A DNA stretch of 64,000 bases from Geminocystis herdmanii PCC 6308 (GTDB lineage: Bacteria; Cyanobacteriota; Cyanobacteriia; Cyanobacteriales; Cyanobacteriaceae): positions 2,917,770 to 2,981,769 of the forward strand of contig NZ_CM001775.1 of the NCBI RefSeq assembly GCF_000332235.1, given 5' to 3'. The position numbers and the translations under genes are program-made. The notes under the pieces are model-generated. The model ran no database searches and was not told the DNA's origin. It worked only from the letters and a program-made list of their open reading frames with translations. Shown one piece after another: positions 25,141 through 63,664 of the stretch (the stretch's first letter is position 1; every line of letters starts with the position of its first letter).

Positions 25141-28100
25141 ATGGAAAAGAATAATTATGGTATAGTTTTAGTTACAGCTAGTAGTGAAACTGAAGCAAGT
25201 TCGATCGCCCATACCTTGATAGAAGAATCCTTGGCGGTGTGTGTCAATTTTATGCCCATTACTTCCGTTTATCATTGGCAAGGAAAAGTTTGTCAAGATT
25301 CGGAATGGCAATTAATTATTAAGACAGATTTGATACTTTTTGAGCGCCTCGAAAGTAAAATTAGAGAATTACATTCTTACGATGTACCAGAAATTGTGCG
25401 ATTCGTTTAGGTCAAAGTTGAGTCTCATAGAGACACCTAGAAGCCAATTCTAGCCCAACGTAAACCTAGCAAGGTAATCAAAAAACCTCAAGAGAAATTA
25501 AGACCCATCACAGGGCATCCTCGAAGGGCAAACTCAGAACCTAGATAACTTAATAACTGTTAAAAACAAAAGAATGGTAACATTCAGGCAACACTATAAA
25601 TAAGACGGAAATCAAGAGAAATGTAACAAAACTTTACAAAACTCAGTGCGGATTACCGAACCTGCGAAGTAGTGATAACCGAACAAGTATTTAAGTACTG
25701 ATGTACCTTGACAACTTGTACTTCCGTGATGGTGCAAAACCATCCGCCCAGATGTTGGGTTGACAGCATATCCCTCAGTCACTTGAAATTGGTAATCTCA
25801 TAGGCTGAAGCAGGGAAAGTAAGGTGTTCATACTACTAGCCTACCAAGTGGTACACATCACGCATTGTTGACTAAGATTACGCAAGGAACTCTCGTTTGA
25901 ACCATCGATAGGACAAACTAGCTAAAAAGGCTGACAAGCTAGACCAAAAAGGTAACTCCTAACATACCAGTAGTCTGATTTTACTAATCTGGAAACATCT
26001 ATACAGGACGGTGGATAGAGAGAATCTAAGGTCAACGAATACGGAAGACAGGAACGAAGTAACCTCCGAACGGCTCTCAGAGAGGTCGAAACTCTGAGTA
26101 GTAACCAGCGTAAGCCCCAAAGAGGAGAGATTGTGTAAGAAGCCAATGCCTTTATGTAATGTAAAAGATATGCTGACGTACACACTGAGAAATGTAATGT
26201 ATAGTTTTTAGTAGTAATTAAGAAGTTATGAACGTAAAGTATAAATGGAACGCTTGGAATCAAATCGATTGGAAAATCGTAGAGGTTGCAGTGTTTAAGT
26301 TACAAAAGAGAATATACAAAGCAAGTCAACGTGGCGATGTCAAATTGGTACACAAATTACAGAGACTACTAACCAAATCCTACTATGGGAAACTCTGGGC
26401 AACCAGAATGGTAACACAAGACAATCAAGGCAAGGTGACGGCAGGAGTTGACGGTAAAAAATCACTCAGACCCAACCAAAGACTTGAGTTAGCAAGTAGC
26501 CTAAGAATCGGTAGAAAAACAAAACCTTTAAGGAGAGTTTGGATACCAAAAACAAACGGTGAAAAAAGAGGACTTGGAATACCAACCATAGAAGACAGGG
26601 CTTTACAGGCTTTAGTCAAACTAGGATTAGAACCACAATGGGAATCAAACTTTGAGGGTAATTCATACGGATTCAGACCAGCAAGAAGCTGTCACGATGC
26701 TATAGAAGCAATATTCAATTCAATCAGATATGTACCAAAATATGTACTGGACGCTGATATAACTGGATGCTTTGACAACATCGACCACAATAAATTACTA
26801 AACAAACTAAACTCTTATCCTCAACTAAATAGACAAGTCAAGGCTTGGCTAAAAAGTGGAGTAATGGAAAATAAAGACCTAATACCTACTGACAAAGGCA
26901 CACCGCAAGGAGGAGTCATCTCACCCTTATTGGCTAACATTGCCTTACACGGTATGGAACTAGAAGTCAAGAAATACGCCAGAACTCTCAAAGGAAACAG
27001 TTATAGAAATGAAAAAAGTATAAGTCTAATAAGATACGCAGACGATTTTGTAATCCTGCACAAAGACTTAAACATAATCATTAAATGTAAAGAAATTATT
27101 GAAAAATGGCTTAAGGAAGTAGGACTAGAACTTAAACCAGAAAAGACCCACATATCCCACACTTTAAATGAGCATGAAGGAAATGTAGGTTTTGACTTTC
27201 TCGGATTTAACATTAGACAATATTCAATAGGAAAATGTCATAGTGGAAAATCCACGAATGGAAAGTTACTCGGATTCAAGACTATCATAAAACCCTCAAA
27301 GAAAAAAGTGAAAACCCACATCAAAAAAATTGGAGATGTAATAAGAAGGCACAAATCATCACCTCAAATAGCATTAATCAACGAATTAAATCCTATAATC
27401 AGAGGATGGAGTAATTATTACAGCACAGTTTGCAGTAAAGAAACCTACTCAGAATGTGACCATATTATATATCGACAATTAAAAAGATGGGGAGAAAGAA
27501 GACATTCAAAAAAATCCAAATCATGGGTTACAAGAAAATACTGGCATGAAGATTACTCAGACGAAAGAACGAGAAATTGGGTCTTCAAAACTAAGGACGG
27601 AATGATACTTTTAAATCACTCAGATACACCCATTGTGCGACACGTCAAAGTCAAAGGAGATAAAAGCCTTTTTGATGGAGATTGGATTTATTGGGCAACT
27701 CGTAAAGGTTCTCACCCTGAAGTATCAACAAAAATGGCAACATTATTGAAGAGACAAAAGGGTAAATGTAATCACTGTGGACTATATTTCAAAGATGGTG
27801 ACTTAGTAGAAATCGACCATGTTATCCCCAGTTCGTCAGGGGGCAAAAATGAGTATAATAATCTACAAGCATTACATCGACATTGCCATGACACCAAAAC
27901 TAATAACGACTACAAAGAAATTCCCAACTTTGGGAATAAGAAAAATACCAAAAGTATTCAAAGTTCCAAAGGGCATAGCCAAACAGGCAGAAGCCAATAG
28001 AAATTATCAAGCAACTTTGAAGAATATGGGTTATTAGGACTTGTACCTATGACAAAGGGCATTTTTGAGAGGAGCTGTGTGAGGTGAAAGTCTCATGCAC

Positions 28101-28227
28101 AGTTCTGAAGAGAGGTTTAGGCAGTGATGCCTACTCCTACTTTAATATCGCTTTACCAATTATAAAAGGTTCTCAACCCTATTTACATTGGATAAAAGAA
28201 AATCTGATCACCTCTAAAAATATTTAA
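25141..28227 (+). CDS. cutA: CutA1 divalent-cation tolerance protein, gene split by a group II intron
   Basis: Exon 1 (25141-25395) encodes 85 residues ending SYDVPEI, the conserved CutA1 block. The frame then runs into the intron and stops. Exon 2 after the intron restores IALPIIKGSQPYLHWI and ends with TAA at 28227, so spliced CutA1 has 111 or 113 residues, the normal length. CutA1 forms trimers linked to metal tolerance. Joining at 28147 gives the exact family sequence PEI-IALPI; joining at 28141 (see intron entry) gives two extra residues (FN), still in frame. Splicing is therefore needed for a full protein. Confidence 0.88.
26228..28000 (+). CDS. ltrA: Group II intron reverse transcriptase/maturase/HNH endonuclease
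   Basis: A 590-residue intron-encoded protein. The reverse transcriptase domain carries YADDFV (about 270-275), with GTPQGGVISPLLANI upstream. The maturase/X domain includes GWSNYYS. The C-terminal HNH domain (about 511-556) has CNHCG, VEIDHVIPSSSGGKNEYNNLQ and HRHCH, the residues for target-site cleavage. It helps the intron splice and copies it into DNA (retrohoming). It lies in domain IV, starting with ATG at 26228. All catalytic motifs are present, so it is probably active. Confidence 0.96.
   Translation: MNVKYKWNAWNQIDWKIVEVAVFKLQKRIYKASQRGDVKLVHKLQRLLTKSYYGKLWATRMVTQDNQGKVTAGVDGKKSLRPNQRLELASSLRIGRKTKPLRRVWIPKTNGEKRGLGIPTIEDRALQALVKLGLEPQWESNFEGNSYGFRPARSCHDAIEAIFNSIRYVPKYVLDADITGCFDNIDHNKLLNKLNSYPQLNRQVKAWLKSGVMENKDLIPTDKGTPQGGVISPLLANIALHGMELEVKKYARTLKGNSYRNEKSISLIRYADDFVILHKDLNIIIKCKEIIEKWLKEVGLELKPEKTHISHTLNEHEGNVGFDFLGFNIRQYSIGKCHSGKSTNGKLLGFKTIIKPSKKKVKTHIKKIGDVIRRHKSSPQIALINELNPIIRGWSNYYSTVCSKETYSECDHIIYRQLKRWGERRHSKKSKSWVTRKYWHEDYSDERTRNWVFKTKDGMILLNHSDTPIVRHVKVKGDKSLFDGDWIYWATRKGSHPEVSTKMATLLKRQKGKCNHCGLYFKDGDLVEIDHVIPSSSGGKNEYNNLQALHRHCHDTKTNNDYKEIPNFGNKKNTKSIQSSKGHSQTGRSQ
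28072..28105 (+). ncRNA. Group II intron domain V
   Basis: A 34-nt hairpin beginning GAGCTGTGTGAGG with a GAAA tetraloop and closing with CACAGTTC. The AGC triad near the 5' side and the two-base bulge are typical of the catalytic domain V. Confidence 0.88.
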
Positions 28228-52888: not shown

Positions 52889-53130
52889 TGTACAGTAACA
52901 AATTAAATGACGTGATAACAAATTAGTGTCATCCAAAATTAAGGCTATTCAAATCTTTATATAGCAATAATTATACCCCAGAAATCCACCAAAAATGATC
53001 TCGATCGTGCCTTAAACTAGATTAACAAATTAAGTGTCATTTTCCCTAAGAATAACAAATTAAATGTCGTCTTCCCGAAAGGCGATTTTTTTTGCTTTAG
53101 GGGTTGTCATTAACAAATTAAATGTCATAA
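52889..53130. repeat. CAST end on the tnsB side, with transposase-site repeats
   Basis: TGTACAGTAACAAATTAAATGACG, read in two parts, opens the end. Related motifs AACAAATTARTGTCRTC occur at about 52916, 53033, 53053 and 53111, making about five probable TnsB sites within 240 bp. Confidence 0.85.
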
Positions 53131-53148
53131 GATTAGTATAGAACTATT

Positions 53149-54846
53149 ATGATTTTATTGAACACTAATGAAAACGCTATGACCATCGATGATCAATTTT
53201 CTGATTCTCCAGAGTTGATCTCCCAACTTTCTCCCGAAGAACAAAAAATCGCCGATGTCATTGAAGATTTACTTCAACCCTGCGATCGAAAAAGCTACGG
53301 AGAAAAGTTGAAACAAGCATCAACTCAACTGAATAAGTCAGTTAGAACTATCCAAAGATACGTTAAGCAATGGGAAGAAAATGGTTTAGTCGGTATTGCT
53401 CAAAATAATCGAGCCGATAAAGGCTTTTATCGTATCGATCGACGTTTACAAGATTTCATTCTTAAAACCTATCGTGAAGGAAACCAAGGCAGTAAAAGAA
53501 TGACTCCTAAACAGGTTTATTTACGAGCAGTTGCCCAAGCCAATAATTGGGGTATCAAACCTCCTTCTCACATGACTATTTATCGAATTTTGAATCCTAT
53601 TATTGAGGAGAAAGAAAATAAAAAACGAATTAGAAGTTCTGGTTGGAGAGGTACAAAATTAGCTGTATCCACTAGATCAGGAAATGAAATTAATGTGGAA
53701 TATAGTAATCATGTCTGGCAATGTGACCATACTCTTGCTGATATTCTTTTGGTAGATCAGTTTGGTAAATTATTAGGCAGACCTTGGCTAACTACAGTTG
53801 TAGATACTTATTCTCGCTGTATCATGGGTATCAATCTTGGTTTTGATGCTCCCAGTTCCCAAGTGGTTGCTCTTGCTTTACGTCATGCCATATTGCCGAA
53901 GAGTTATAGTTCTGATTATGGACTACATGAGGAATGGGGAACGTATGGTAAACCAGAGTATTTTTACACTGACGGCGGTAAGGATTTTCGTTCTAATCAT
54001 CTTCAACAAATTAGTTTACAGCTAGGCTTTACTTGTCATTTACGGAGTCGTCCTAGGGGCGGTGGTGTAGTAGAGCGTGTTTTTAAAACTTTCAATACGG
54101 AGGTTTTTTCTACCTTACCTGGATATACAGGTGCAAATGTGCAAGAACGTCCAGAGGATGCAGAAAAAGAAGCCTGTATAACTCTCAAGGAACTAGAGAA
54201 ATTGATTGTCTGCTATATCGTGGACAACTATAATCAACGTCTTGATGCCCGTATGGGTGAGCAAACTCGCTTTCAACGTTGGGAATCTGGATTACTTTCT
54301 GTCCCAGATGCTATCTCGGAACGAGAATTAGATATTTGTCTAATGAAGCAATCACGCAGAAGGGTTCAAAAGGGGGGTCATCTTCAATTTGAAAATCTGA
54401 TTTACAAGGGGGAATATTTAGGGGGTTATGAGGGAGAAACTGTCATTATTCGTTATGATCCTAGAGATATTACAGGTATTTTAGTTTATCGCTTGGAAAA
54501 TAATAAAGAAGTCTTTCTGACTCGTGCCTATGCTGTGGACTTAGAAAGTGAATCTTTATCTTTGACAGATGCGAAAGCTAGTGCCAAAAGAGTGAGAGAT
54601 GCAGGAAAAAATTTGAGTAATCGTTCGGTCTTAATGGAAGTGGAAGAACGTTCTAATTTTACTCAGAAAAAAACCAAAAAACAAAGGCAAAAACAAGAAC
54701 AAGAAATGGTTAGAACATTTACTCCTTCAACCATTTTAAAGGAGGAAAAGGAAATAGAAGAGCAATCTACTTTATCTTCCTCTACTAAGAAGAATAAGGT
54801 AAAAGTTATTGACTATGAACAGTTACAAAACGATTTTGATTTTTAG
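53149..54846 (+). CDS. tnsB: Transposase TnsB (CAST V-K)
   Basis: A 565-residue DDE transposase that cuts and joins the transposon ends. The catalytic triad is visible: D193 in WQCDHTLAD, D275 in YTDGGKDF and E309 in GVVERVF (34 residues apart). N-terminal helix-turn-helix domains (about 30-160) bind the end repeats. The C-terminal tail is charged and would contact TnsC. Start at 53149 or at the internal ATG at 53179. It is the only core transposition protein here with an intact frame. tnsC follows 9 bp later. Confidence 0.95.
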   Translation: MILLNTNENAMTIDDQFSDSPELISQLSPEEQKIADVIEDLLQPCDRKSYGEKLKQASTQLNKSVRTIQRYVKQWEENGLVGIAQNNRADKGFYRIDRRLQDFILKTYREGNQGSKRMTPKQVYLRAVAQANNWGIKPPSHMTIYRILNPIIEEKENKKRIRSSGWRGTKLAVSTRSGNEINVEYSNHVWQCDHTLADILLVDQFGKLLGRPWLTTVVDTYSRCIMGINLGFDAPSSQVVALALRHAILPKSYSSDYGLHEEWGTYGKPEYFYTDGGKDFRSNHLQQISLQLGFTCHLRSRPRGGGVVERVFKTFNTEVFSTLPGYTGANVQERPEDAEKEACITLKELEKLIVCYIVDNYNQRLDARMGEQTRFQRWESGLLSVPDAISERELDICLMKQSRRRVQKGGHLQFENLIYKGEYLGGYEGETVIIRYDPRDITGILVYRLENNKEVFLTRAYAVDLESESLSLTDAKASAKRVRDAGKNLSNRSVLMEVEERSNFTQKKTKKQRQKQEQEMVRTFTPSTILKEEKEIEEQSTLSSSTKKNKVKVIDYEQLQNDFDF

Positions 54847-54855
54847 GAGTTAGTA

Positions 54856-55683
54856 ATGGAAGCGAAAAATGTAGCAGAACAATTAGGTGAACTTAATATT
54901 CCTAATCAAGAATTGCAAAAAGAAATTAATGGATTACAACGCAAACCATTTGCGGATTTAAAACAGGTTGCGATTCTTCACTAATGGCTTGAAAGTAAGC
55001 GTCAATCGAAGCAGTCTTGTCGAGTGGTGGGGGAATCTCGGACAGGTAAAACTGTGGCTTGTAACTCTTATCATTTAAGACATAAGCTAAAGCAAGAAGT
55101 GGGAAAACCTCCTCAAGTACCTGTCGTTTACTTACAAGTACCCCAAGAATGTGGAGCAAAGGATTTGTTTCAGGGAATTATTGAGTATTTGAAGTATCAA
55201 ATGACGAATGGTACGGTGTCAGAAATCAGAAAAAGAACCATGACAGTATTGCAAAGATGCGGTGTCGAGATGATTATTCTGGATGAAGCAGATCGCTGTA
55301 AACCAAAGACTTTTGCTGAAATTCGGGATATTTTTGATCATCTCAATATTGCCATCGTGCTGGTGGGAACCGATCGTTTGGATGCGGTAATCAAGAAGGA
55401 TGAACAGGTTTATAATCGTTTTCGTCCTTGTTATCGTTTTGGTAAATTGGTTGGAGAAGACTTTATTGATACGATCGAAACTTGGGAAGAGGAGGTATTA
55501 AAACTACCTCAACCTTCTAATTTAACTGGCAAAAAAATGTTGAAGTTGATCGCAGAAGCTACCCAAGGTTATATCGGTATCATGGACGTGGTTTTGCGTG
55601 AGTCAGCAATTAGAGCCTTAAAAAAAGGATTAAAAAAGATTGATTATGACACTTTAAAAGAAGTTGTACAGGAGTATAAATAA
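54856..55683 (+). pseudogene. tnsC: tnsC (CAST AAA+ ATPase) with in-frame stop
   Basis: The frame starts MEAKNVAEQLGELNIP, like TnsC of V-K CAST, but a TAA at 54982-54984 interrupts QVAILH-stop-WLESKRQSKQ. The rest is intact: Walker A VGESRTGKT, Walker B MIILDEAD, then VGTDRLDAVIKKDEQVYNRF and a C-terminal VVQEYK. TnsC polymerises on DNA and links Cas12k/TniQ to TnsB. A GAA-to-TAA change would explain the stop. Re-initiation at GTG 55024 would give 219 residues lacking the N-terminal 56. Probably non-functional unless the stop is read through. Confidence 0.9.
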
Positions 55684-56177
55684 TGGAAATTCAGCCTTGG
55701 TGGTTTACGCTCATGCTCCGCATGACGCTGCGCGTACGAACCTTATGAGGGTGAAAGTATTAGTCATTTTTTGGGGAGGTTTAGACGGGAAAATGAGCTT
55801 ACTCTTTCTGGTTTAGGCAAAATAGCAGAACTATATGGAGCAATCGCCCGTTGGGAAAAGTTCCGTTTTAATCCTCCTCCCTCCTCTGAACAGTTAGAAA
55901 AATTAAGTGCGATCGTACAAGTAGAAGTAGCAACCTTACAAACAATGTTTCCTTCTGCCCCTATGAAAATGACTCCTATTCGTCTTTGTTCGGCTTGTTA
56001 TGGGGAAAAACCTTATCATAAGATGGAATGGCAGTATAAGGAGATTTATCGGTGCGATCGTCATAATCTTAAACTTTTATCGGAATGCCATAATTGTGGG
56101 GCAAGATTCAAGTTTCCCAGTCTATGGGTTGTGGTTGGTGTCATAGGTGTGTTACCCGTTTTACTAAAATGAGATAA
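55683..56177 (+). pseudogene. tniQ: tniQ (CAST) with repeat insertion and frameshift
   Basis: ATG overlaps the tnsC stop (TAATG). The start MEIQPWWFTL fits TniQ. Then a ~25-bp repeat (about 55713-55737) is inserted and the frame is lost; removing it restores FTLEPYEGES-ISHFLGRF. The middle is normal (LARWEKFRFNPPPSSEQL-like, then CSACYGEKPYHKMEWQYKEIYRCDRH). Near 56127 a 1-base loss makes the last part run VVVGVIGVLP instead of CGWCHRCVTRF, which would end at TAA 56177. TniQ bridges Cas12k and TnsC; this copy should be inactive. Confidence 0.88.
55713..55737. repeat. ~25-bp small palindromic repeat inserted in tniQ
   Basis: ATGCTCCGCATGACGCTGCG, then CGTAC. It contains the palindrome ATGCTCCGCAT, and its reverse complement starts with GCGCAGCG like the repeats at 13436 and 61043. 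Removing 25 bp restores the tniQ frame. Confidence 0.7.
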
Positions 56178-60023: not shown

Positions 60024-60461
60024 TTAGTAAGTATTGATTGATGTTATTATACTGCTTAGATTGTGATGAATCTGATCAATCCACAGAGGCACGATCGTCT
60101 TCTCCTCTTCCAGAAGTTCGATCGCTTTCTCCCGTTGATAAGGCAATAACTCAACAGTACCATCATTAGCAATCACCATAAAACGCTTCTTAAAGTCCGC
60201 ATCGGTAAATGATGGCTCTTTTTCCCTCAAATCATTGAGGATTTTTTGTACCATCTCTAAATTCAAACCAACAGACAGCATATATACCATTACCGACACC
60301 TCTACCAACTCCACAAAAGAATAGTAGATTGTCTTTCCCGTACCTGTCCCCATAATCAAAGGCACAATAATCTCCTTATCCCTCCAATACTGCAATTGTC
60401 GGAGAGAACAACCCGTAATCTTTGATATATCTTTGCTACTAAAAAATAGTTCCTGTTTCAT
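60024..60461 (-). CDS. cvkR: CvkR-like MerR repressor of the CAST
   Basis: About 145 residues: MKQELFFSSKDISKITGCSLRQLQYWRDK is a MerR helix-turn-helix, followed by a dimerisation helix (VYMLSVGLNLEMVQKIL) and a C-terminal helical part. It is divergent from cas12k, exactly the position of CvkR, a MerR-type regulator shown in Anabaena to repress cas12k and tracrRNA expression. No effector-binding domain is visible. Start at 60461 (or 60467). The frame is intact, unlike most CAST genes. Confidence 0.88.
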   Translation of the reverse strand: MKQELFFSSKDISKITGCSLRQLQYWRDKEIIVPLIMGTGTGKTIYYSFVELVEVSVMVYMLSVGLNLEMVQKILNDLREKEPSFTDADFKKRFMVIANDGTVELLPYQREKAIELLEEEKTIVPLWIDQIHHNLSSIITSINTY

Positions 60462-60525
60462 ACCCACAATTATAAAATAATTTGCTATTATACAAATATG
60501 TCCAATTAAACAATTATGTAAAGTG
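60462..60525. promoter_or_regulatory. Shared cvkR-cas12k promoter/operator region
   Basis: About 64 bp between divergent genes. It contains TGCTATTATAC (a -10-like TATTAT or TATAC) and the repeated ACAATTA element on both sides (ACAATTATAAAA, CCAATTAAACAATTA). By analogy this is where CvkR would bind. Exact start sites are not determinable from sequence. Confidence 0.5.
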
Positions 60526-62420
60526 ATGGTTCAGGTAACTATTCAATCTCGTTTAATCGCTTCTGCTGATACTCGTCAATTTCTCTGGTTGTTGATGAGC
60601 AAGAAAAATACTCCTTTGATCAATGAAATCCTTACCCGAATTAAACATCATCCCGATTTTCCCCAATGGCGAGAGAAAGGAAGACTGCCGAAAAACTTTA
60701 TTGCTCAACAAATTCAAGAGCTAAAAAATGATTCTCGTTTTCAAGGACAACCATCTCGGTTTTATGCTTCTGTCGGTAAAATCATCGACTACATATACAA
60801 ATCTTGGTTCAAAGTGCAAAAGAGTTACAAAATCCAATTAGAAGGTAATAGCCGTTGGTTAGAAATGTTGAAACCCGATAGTTTATTAATAGAATCCTTT
60901 GATGGTTCAATGGAAGCACTGCAAAATCAGGCTCAACAGATTCTCGATAATATTGAAACGACTTCTACTCAAGAAGGTATTGTTGATTATTTATTTCAAA
61001 AATATGAGAAAACAGAAGATTGTCGAATGAGGGATGCGATCGCGCAGCGCCACCGTAGGTGATCGTTTATCTGATCAAAAATGGTAGTCGCATTCCTAAG
61101 AACAATATTGAAACAACCAAGAAATATAAAAGAATCAAAAGAAAATTAGAAATCAAAATTCGTAAATTGAAAAGACAAGTGGAAATGTCTATTCCTTCTG
61201 GGAGAGATTTAGAGGGAGAAAAATGGTTACAAACTCTCATCCTTGCTTCTAACACGATGCCTGTAGATCAAAATGAGAGTGATAGTTGGTTTTCGGCATT
61301 GAAACGAAATTCTCCATCAATTCCCTATCCTATCGTTTATGAAACCAATGAAGATTTAAAATGGTGTTTGAATGACCAAAACCGTATTTGTATTAAATTT
61401 AGTGGTTTGAGTGACCATCTTTTTCTAATCTATTGTGATTCTCGTCAACTGCCTTATTTTCGCCGTTTTTATGAGGATCAGGAATTGAAAAAAGCCAGTA
61501 AAGATCAGTTTTCGAGTGCTTTATTTACCTTGCGTTCGGCTATGATCATCTGGAAAGAAGATGATGGAAAAGGAGAGTCGTGGGATAAGCATAAACTCTA
61601 TTTACATTGTACTTTTGATACAGATTATTGGACTTTGGAAGGTACACAAGTCATTGCTCAAAAAAAGCAGGAGGAAGTGCTAAATCTCATTGATAGGATG
61701 AAGGAAAAGACGGATTTAACAGATACTCAAAAGGCGTTTATTCAACGGAAACAGACGACTCTTGCCCGACTTAATAATATTTTCCCTCGCCCTAGTAAGC
61801 CTATTTATCAAGGTAATCCGAATCTTTTTCTCGGTGTGGCAATGGGTTTACAAGAACCAGTTACGATCGCACTTGTGGATGTCAGCACCAATAAAGTGAT
61901 TCTCTATCGTAATATCAAACAATTATTGGGGGATGACTACCATCTAATCAGGAGAAGACGAAATGAGAAACAGAAATTGAATCACCAAAACCATAAAGCA
62001 AGGAAAAGAGCTAATTTTCAACAAAAGGGGGAATCTAATCTGGGTGAATACCTCGATCGACTAATTGCTAAATCCATTCTTCAAATCGCTGAAGAGTACC
62101 AAGTATCAACTATTATCGTTCCTCGATTGAATCAGATACGATCGATTACTGAGGCTGAAATACAAGCAAGGGCAGAGGAGAGAATACCAGAATATAAGGA
62201 GGGGCAACGAAAATATGCACAGGATTATTGTGTACAAGTGCATCAATGGAGTTATGGTAGATTGATTGATAATATCAAAGCAATTTCTTCTAAATTGGGT
62301 ATTGTCGTAGAGGAAGGCAAACAACCCAAACAGGGAAAGTTTACCGATAAGGCATTACAGTTAGCATTGAGTACCCAGAAAAATAATCGCCAAAATAATC
62401 CCACAAAGACAAATTCTTAA
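60526..62420 (+). pseudogene. cas12k: cas12k with 23-bp insertion (frameshift)
   Basis: N-terminal part (MVQVTIQSRLIASADTRQFL..., then NTPLINEIL and GQPSRFYASVGKIIDYIYKSW) and C-terminal part (KWLQTLI, YPIVYETNEDLKWCLND, TQKAFIQRKQTTLARLNN, VHQWSYGRLIDNIKAI) both match Cas12k, the nuclease-dead effector that finds the target for V-K CAST. A 23-bp repeat at 61043-61065 shifts the frame after RMRDAI; removing it restores RMRDAI-VYLIKNG and a ~624-residue protein of normal size. As is, only 179 residues can be made from the start. Confidence 0.93.
61043..61065. repeat. 23-bp small dispersed repeat inserted in cas12k
   Basis: CGCAGCGCCACCGTAGGTGATCG is 23 bases (given in two parts: CGCAGCGCCAC and CGTAGGTGATCG). 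It is flanked by GATCG at 61038-61042 and at its own end. It shares both ends with the 21-bp copy at 13436-13456, and only the centre differs. Confidence 0.85.
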
Positions 62421-62435
62421 GTTACAATGAGGGAA
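62421..62435 (+). promoter_or_regulatory. Probable tracrRNA promoter
   Basis: TACAAT at 62423-62428, two bases after the cas12k stop, about 8 bases before the tracrRNA start. A clear -35 box is not obvious. Confidence 0.45.
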
Positions 62436-62650
62436 ATCGTGCCGCCGATCAAGTTGTTGTCAACCTCTGTTCTGCGAAAAATGAGGGGTAGTTTACCTAG
62501 TAATAGGTTTGCTTTCTGTCCCTGATAACTGCTCACTCTGATGCTGCGCACTGAATAAAGTGCGGAAACAAGGGGCACTCCCAGCAACAGGAGTTTGGGT
62601 GTACCAATGTAGTGGTTATCCAATCACCTCCGATCAAGGAGGAATCCCAG
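62436..62650 (+). ncRNA. CAST tracrRNA
   Basis: Immediately downstream of cas12k, with the known V-K tracrRNA landmarks: GTGCCGCC near the 5' end, TTTGCTTTCTGTCCCTG, CTCACTCTGATGCTGC, GGCACTCCCAGCAA, and the 3' hairpin CCTCCGATCAAGGAGG followed by AATCCC. AATCCC pairs with the GGGATT of the CRISPR repeats. It is needed with crRNA to load Cas12k. Length about 215 nt. It runs 202 bp ahead of the CRISPR array. Confidence 0.9.
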
Positions 62651-62852: not shown

Positions 62853-63035
62853 GTTGAAATAAGACAATACCTTCTATAGGGATTGAAAGCTCCTCTTTAT
62901 AGCCTAGGATTGCGAGATAAGTATGTTGAAATAAGACAATACCTTCTATAGGGATTGAAAGTCCTTGTCGTACCATCTTTGATTCGAGTGAGTCGGGGGT
63001 TGAAATAAGACAATACCTTCTTTAGGGTTTATAAT
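62853..63035 (+). CRISPR. Type V-K CRISPR array, 3 repeats and 2 spacers
   Basis: The 37-nt repeats start GTTGAAATAAGACAATACC and end GGGATTGAAAG, at 62853-62889 and 62925-62961. The third, at 62999-63035, matches for the first ~29 bases and then degenerates (GTTTATAAT instead of GATTGAAAG). Spacers are 35 nt (62890-62924) and 37 nt (62962-62998). I see no match to the spacers within this window. The ATTGAAAG end is as in other V-K arrays. The array is short, typical of CAST. Confidence 0.93.
63007..63035 (+). promoter_or_regulatory. Probable promoter of the fused guide RNA inside the degenerate repeat
   Basis: AAGACA at 63007-63012 (4 of 6 matches to TTGACA), then 17 bases, then a perfect TATAAT at 63030-63035. 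The TATAAT comes from the degenerate end of repeat 3. Transcription would start about 63042, right at the beginning of the second tracrRNA copy. Confidence 0.5.
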
Positions 63036-63037
63036 AT

Positions 63038-63284
63038 TAACAGTGCCGTAGATCAAGTTTTCATAACCTCTGTTCTATGAAAAATAAGGAGTAGTTTACT
63101 TCTTCTAAGAAGTTTGCTTTCTGCTCCTGCTAACTACTTGCCCTGATGCTGTCTATCTAAAGATAGAGAAACTAGGCGCACTCCCAGCAATAAGGGTGCA
63201 GGTGTACTGCTATAGCGGTTAGCAAATCACTTTCGATCGAGGAAGAATTCTCTTTGAGAATTGAAAGCGAGTCTCGCCATCTGC
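63038..63284 (+). ncRNA. Second tracrRNA fused to a truncated repeat and tRNA-targeting guide (natural single guide RNA)
   Basis: A diverged copy of the tracrRNA: AGTGCCGTAGATCAAGTT, TTTGCTTTCTGCTCCTG, GATGCTG, GCACTCCCAGCAA and a 3' stem CTTTCGATCGAGGAAG. Instead of ending there, it goes on as AATTCTC-TTT-GAGAATT-GAAAG (63248-63267): a 7-bp stem and 3-base loop that joins the anti-repeat to the repeat end. The guide follows at 63268-63284 (CGAGTCTCGCCATCTGC), matching the last 17 nt of tRNA-Leu(GAG) at 16 of 17 positions. The AATTCTC/GAGAATT pairing differs from the main AATCCC/GGGATT pairing on both strands, so the fold has been kept. Confidence 0.85.
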
Positions 63285-63287
63285 TTT

Positions 63288-63372
63288 GACGACACTAATT
63301 TGTGATCACGTCATTTGATTTGTTAAGACGACACTAATCTGTTACCGATGACAAATAATTTGTTACTGTACA
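63288..63372. repeat. CAST end on the CRISPR/tRNA side
   Basis: Inverted transposase-site repeats: GACGACACTAATTTGT (63288), ACGTCATTTGATTTGTTA (63308), GACGACACTAATCTGTTAC (63328) and finally AAATAATTTGTTACTGTACA ending at 63372. About four sites, against about five in the other end. They begin directly after the guide sequence. Confidence 0.85.
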
Positions 63373-63412
63373 TCGGGGAAAGAAAATTTGTGACAACACA
63401 TCTATCTAAAAT

Positions 63413-63432
63413 GCGGATGGCGAGACTCGAAC
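63413..63432 (-). other. Predicted homing target (protospacer plus GTT PAM) in tRNA-Leu
   Basis: On the minus strand, GTT (63430-63432, T-loop) is followed by CGAGTCTCGCCATCCGC, the end of the tRNA. The guide differs only by T for C at position 15, which as RNA:DNA is a U-G wobble. V-K CAST uses GTN PAMs; the transposon end is 57 bp further on. Confidence 0.8.
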
Positions 63433-63493
63433 TCGCAAGGTCAAGACCACACGCCCCTCAAGCGTGCGCGTATACCAATTCCGCCACATCCGC
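63413..63493 (-). tRNA. trnL-GAG: tRNA-Leu (GAG)
   Basis: An 81-nt gene on the minus strand: acceptor GCGGATG pairs with CATCCGC, with D-loop GGAATTGGTATACGC, anticodon stem CACGC/GCGTG with loop TTGAGGG (anticodon GAG), a long variable arm and T-loop GTTCGAGTC. CCA is not encoded. It is the target site of the adjacent CAST and remains intact. Confidence 0.96.
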
Positions 63494-63664
63494 AGAAACT
63501 CAACGAATAATTATTATAACTGATTTTGCGTTATATAGCAAGAAGATGGTGAGAAAAAATGTCTTATCCTGAAACAAAAGTCCGCAAATCTTAACTTATC
63601 ATTGGTTTTATAATACTCTTATTGATACAATAACTCTTTAGTCCAATATCGGAAAAAAAAATTT

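Follow-up and report, generated by a model that had tools for sequence, protein, structure and literature searches.

The locus described here raises the question of whether a type V-K CAST can carry a homing guide that is, in nature, already a single-guide RNA. In the 64,000-nucleotide stretch of the Geminocystis herdmanii PCC 6308 genome that was analysed (the window; coordinates refer to it, and features lie on the forward strand unless stated otherwise), tracrRNAs were located by an iterated profile, which matched at 62435–62645 (E 1.3e-49) and again at 63039–63248 (E 4.6e-46). The first match is the main tracrRNA (tracr1; 62435–62650), with the antirepeat AATCCC. The second copy runs without a break into a 7-bp hairpin (63246–63262) formed by the antirepeat AATTCTC (63246–63252), a TTT loop and the truncated repeat GAGAATT (63256–63262), then into GAAAG (63263–63267) and the 17-nt homing guide CGAGTCTCGCCATCTGC (63268–63284). 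The putative natural single-guide RNA scaffold, that is, the second tracrRNA copy together with the truncated repeat, extends over 63039–63267 according to the tracrRNA profile, comparison with relatives and covariation, and includes a CTTTC complementary to GAAAG (63117–63121). A complete tracrRNA body is continuous here with repeat and guide, a trait expected of a natural single-guide RNA. The letters quoted in the initial annotation were all in place in the window, and its claim that the guide is aimed at the adjacent tRNA-Leu was supported by the sequence: the guide matches 16 of 17 positions of the protospacer CGAGTCTCGCCATCCGC (63413–63429, reverse strand) inside a tRNA-Leu(GAG) gene (63411–63494, reverse strand). 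A GTT PAM (63430–63432) lies on the correct side, 57 bp from the transposon end at 63372. Rfam yielded no match to the tracrRNA or the fused RNA. From comparative sequence evidence, we consider it very probable that this feature is a natural single-guide RNA for Cas12k, derived from a tracrRNA that was duplicated and joined to a truncated repeat and a 17-nt guide in several V-K lineages.

The surrounding element has the composition of a V-K CAST. Its tRNA-distal end (52889–53140; TGTACAGTAACAAATTA...) has an end motif and internal repeats and is kept in relatives, its tRNA-proximal end (63285–63372) closes with TGTTACTGTACA, and tnsB, tnsC and tniQ lie in order between 52889 and 63372. The transposase gene tnsB (53149–54846; Pfam rve and Mu-transpos_C) is an open frame. 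The tnsC gene (TniB/AAA; 54856–55683, assigned by Pfam and comparison), an open frame of 278 codons in relatives, is broken by an in-frame TAA at 54982–54984, and the frame of tniQ (55684–56172) is broken by a small insertion near 55705–55750. The cargo includes a methylase. A MerR-type regulator (Pfam MerR_1; 60024–60467, reverse strand) adjoins cas12k, the CvkR position described previously (PMC9938897). The Cas12k effector (60523–62420; NCBIfam V_Cas12k, 633.7 bits against a cut-off of 150) is present, although its frame is broken by a small insertion near 61034–61075. Part of this insertion region has an 83% match at one other place in the same genome. The best PADLOC model for this Cas12k (61059–62420) was named Cas12j, whereas NCBIfam gave Cas12k, a discrepancy that probably concerns naming only. 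Downstream of cas12k, tracr1 is followed by a CRISPR array (62853–63035) in which two 37-nt repeats are intact and the last one (62999–63035) is degenerate. Since tnsC, tniQ and cas12k are all broken, the window element is probably no longer mobile. No target-site duplication was found at its ends (flanks TAATG versus TCGGG) or in the other four elements checked, perhaps owing to replicative transposition or later rearrangement. A near-homologue search of plasmids returned a sole match, to 46 nt of the transposon end. Elsewhere in the window, a group II intron domain V was detected at 28069–28146 (Rfam RF00029, 62.3 bits).

The guide shares several traits with the delocalised homing crRNA of V-K CASTs (PMC9938897; PMC11406308): a truncated repeat apart from the array, a 17-nt guide after GAAAG and a tRNA target with a GTN PAM just outside the element. 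In contrast to that crRNA, the window guide is joined covalently to a complete tracrRNA copy of its own. The fused truncated repeat has diverged so as to pair with this copy and does not resemble the array repeat (TGAGAATT vs. TAGGGATT). The tracr1 antirepeat AATCCC matches GGGATT of the array repeat, not GAGAATT of the truncated repeat.

To place the locus among its relatives, V-K loci were gathered by Cas12k search, homing guides were identified by their match to a GTN-flanked downstream target, and the family, order and phylum were scanned further. The initial annotation had allowed that the hairpin junction might occur in no relative; the fused architecture was found in 20 further loci in 16 related cyanobacterial genomes, giving 21 loci in 17 genomes with the window. 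All seven matches of the phylum pattern scan were true fused copies, and the reversed controls of the order and phylum scans gave no match to the fused-copy pattern. Four other pattern matches (G507, G484, G123 and G654) were rejected as tracr1 followed by a chance TGAAAG. The scaffold is shared between species whose tRNA-matching guides differ; in G145, for example, the scaffold is almost identical to that of the window, and a different guide matches its own tRNA-Arg at 17/17. The tnsB, tnsC, tniQ and cas12k frames of G145 are all open. In 17 of the 21 fused loci (window included), the guide matched a neighbouring GTN-flanked target at no fewer than 15 of 17 positions, and 16 of the 17 targets fall within called tRNA genes for eight amino acids (Leu, Arg, Asp, Ser, Tyr, Val, Phe and Thr); the G393 guide has a 17/17 target at which no tRNA was called. 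Matches were poorer in G109 (13/17) and G577 (12/17), and no nearby target was found for the G056b or G492 guide.

Two reduced derivatives were also observed. In the genome of the window, a 750-bp mini-element (L037 1042–1791; G000:C1:687541-688290) retains both transposon ends but no more of the fused RNA than a 3' stub, whose guide matches an adjacent tRNA-Arg(ACG) fragment at 16/17. In G391, a derivative of ca. 5.7 kb (L182 12604–18275) lacks cas12k and retains tnsB and tniQ fragments and a full fused RNA, whose guide matches tRNA-Asp at 16/17. The idea that loci without cas12k might be satellites that depend on mobilisation in trans was dropped: the L182 tns fragments are decayed, and L184 has no far end in the stretch examined.

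These targets bear on whether the RNA might be regulatory and take the effector to a promoter instead of a site of transposition. For Cas9, a natural single guide is known to control cas genes (PMC11417352): tracr-L of type II-A (Workman 2021, cited there), a longer RNA transcribed from the tracrRNA gene itself, with a role in autoregulation. Tracr-L resembles the fused RNA in being a natural one-piece guide, whereas the fused RNA is a duplicated tracrRNA with a tRNA-matching guide, presumably for transposition, and with Cas12k as its effector. The guides correspond to neighbouring tRNA genes, the matched sites have a GTN PAM and the usual spacing from the transposon end, and the guides vary with the tRNA next to the element, all of which makes a regulatory role exceedingly improbable. 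The single-guide RNA is better read as a homing guide.

The initial annotation took the perfect pairing of antirepeat and truncated repeat as a sign of selection. This claim did not stand for the window hairpin alone, which is not beyond chance: 122 of 5000 shuffles folded at least as well, and 22 of 78 unfused loci had a helix of at least seven pairs flush with GAAAG in the 60 nt upstream of it. It gained support from covariation across the 18 distinct hairpins of the fused copies. With a script anchored on GAAAG, 115 of 124 cells at the seven pair positions were counted as paired, compared with a mean of 92.9 and a maximum of 105 when the truncated repeats were dealt among the hairpins in 2000 shuffles, a comparison that yields no probability because the hairpin sequences are related. 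The variants include AATTCTC/GAGAATT, AATCCATC/GATGGATT, AGTTTT/AAAACT and AATTTT/AAAATT. RNAalifold did not predict the hairpin on a MAFFT alignment of the fused 3' halves, since the alignment had misplaced it. Several hairpins depart from the pattern: that of G571 is weak (−0.7 kcal/mol), and those of G405, G577 and G495 contain mismatches. Longer loops are present in G366 and G054. Of the 21 fused copies, 18 keep the CTTTC that can pair with GAAAG; it lies at about −151 to −157 in most of them and at −209 to −297 in three. What takes the finding beyond chance is a complete tracrRNA copy whose antirepeat sits in the correct register, together with conservation and covariation in relatives, and the same features support the proposal of a duplicated tracrRNA fused to a homing crRNA.

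An alternative is that an ordinary delocalised crRNA works in trans with tracr1 and that the fused copy is a decaying duplicate. Trans use of a shared tracrRNA is how most V-K elements are described (PMC9938897). The window tracr1 antirepeat still forms a duplex with the truncated repeat, albeit weaker than that of the cis antirepeat (−4.2 vs. −6.4 kcal/mol), and in L066 tracr1 pairs with the truncated repeat better than the cis antirepeat does. In the window, G145, G056b, G054 and L058, the partner of tracr1 is the array repeat and that of the second antirepeat is the truncated repeat; the cross-pairings are weaker or similar. A mere bystander, however, would account poorly for the covariation of the hairpins, the retention of the full scaffold with its CTTTC, a truncated repeat that has diverged from the array repeat, and the elements G056a, G109 and G366, where the fused tracrRNA stands alone. 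We therefore regard this alternative as very unlikely and favour pairing in cis within a single-guide RNA.

Fused and unfused loci were compared across the V-K loci gathered. A homing guide with at most two mismatches was present in 86 of 116 non-duplicate loci. The distance from the tracrRNA end to GAAAG was 14–37 nt in the seven fused loci among these 86, compared with 77–1628 nt (median 603) in the other 72 homing-guide loci with a measurable gap. The 5 nt of the truncated repeat immediately ahead of GAAAG were identical to the array repeat in 53 of 69 unfused loci, and in none of the six fused loci with a detectable array. L077 (Crocosphaera MO_202.B2) has its truncated repeat 77 nt past a single tracrRNA, ahead of the array; this locus may be an intermediate on the way to fusion. 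Mismatches between the homing guide and the tRNA cluster at guide position 15 in fused as well as unfused elements, the commonest being a guide T that faces a protospacer C. One CAST, L040 (G056), has its first array repeat split by an insertion sequence.

These results suggest a scheme in which the tracrRNA gene underwent duplication and its second copy fused with a truncated repeat and a 17-nt homing guide, with the antirepeat of this copy pairing in cis with the truncated repeat. One transcript would then hold everything that Cas12k needs to find the tRNA attachment site; the fused RNA would load Cas12k and direct insertion beside the tRNA gene, and tracr1 would serve the array crRNAs. Transcription as one RNA, Cas12k loading and homing by the fused RNA are predictions of this scheme from the DNA sequence. 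A promoter-like AAGACA-17-TATAAT (63007–63035) lies inside the degenerate last array repeat, and the separate sgRNA copies in the family of the window have TATAAT (TATAGT in one case) at the corresponding position, shortly before the scaffold. In a promoter scan, sites in the window stretch were no commoner than in shuffles. The conserved TATAAT box is therefore no more than suggestive of a promoter of the fused RNA.

Such a transcript could also be a precursor that is cut in the hairpin, yielding an ordinary tracrRNA:crRNA pair from one gene. RNase III processes tracrRNA–crRNA duplexes in other class 2 systems, and the longer loops in G366 and G054 would suit such processing. The 3-nt loop and 7-bp stem in the family of the window, however, look too short for RNase III, and the one-piece form works for ShCAST, whose in vitro transposition runs on an engineered sgRNA (PMC9876797); a one-piece guide is therefore acceptable to this effector family. 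Cleavage thus appears a shade less probable even than a bystander role, and an RNA used in one piece is preferred. The engineered ShCAST sgRNA and the fused RNA have in common a short loop that joins the tracrRNA to repeat and guide in one RNA, whereas the fused RNA is natural and has a 17-nt guide, a native loop and, in most elements, a separate tracrRNA and array alongside.

The history of the fusion was traced with two trees. In the Cas12k tree, all included fused loci fell into one clade of 17 rows (SH-aLRT 94) with three subgroups. In the tracrRNA tree, the fused copies formed three groups, and a single-clade constraint was rejected (p-AU 0.0045). The fusion probably arose repeatedly; several independent fusions are the simplest reading of the trees, although gene conversion between tracrRNA copies could mimic this pattern. 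Recombination between copies is apparent in G056, which contains two elements with identical Cas12k: one has tracr1, the array and the fused copy, and the other has only a recombinant with the 5' end of tracr1 followed by the fused copy. A tracr1/fused recombinant of this kind is present in G109. In G056a, G109 and G366, the fused tracrRNA is the only tracrRNA, and no array is present. The sequences of G056a and G109 indicate that these elements lost tracr1 and the array by recombination, keeping the single guide alone. Array-less CASTs with only a delocalised crRNA have been mentioned previously (PMC11656645); the three elements resemble them in lacking an array and differ in that their only guide is a fused single-guide RNA, with the recombination route visible in G056a and G109.

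A survey of 118 CASTs (PMC9938897), a 2024 review (PMC11406308) and further CAST reviews describe the truncated repeat as lying apart from the array. A fused tracrRNA is not mentioned in these sources, and an earlier description may exist. On balance, we lean towards the view that V-K CASTs have repeatedly and independently made the homing guide a self-contained single-guide RNA with a private antirepeat–repeat pair, separating homing from array-guided spread, and that recombination between tracrRNA copies then gave rise to array-less transposons running on one natural single guide. Evolution would thereby have reached the engineered single-guide design, for an effector used in programmable DNA insertion. 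The 18 natural hairpins, their loop lengths and the 17-nt guides could inform V-K guide design. For the family itself, tracrRNA-copy recombination would provide a concrete route to array-less CASTs, and the joint drift of the homing repeat and its antirepeat away from those of the array suggests how one transposon may keep two guide pathways apart.
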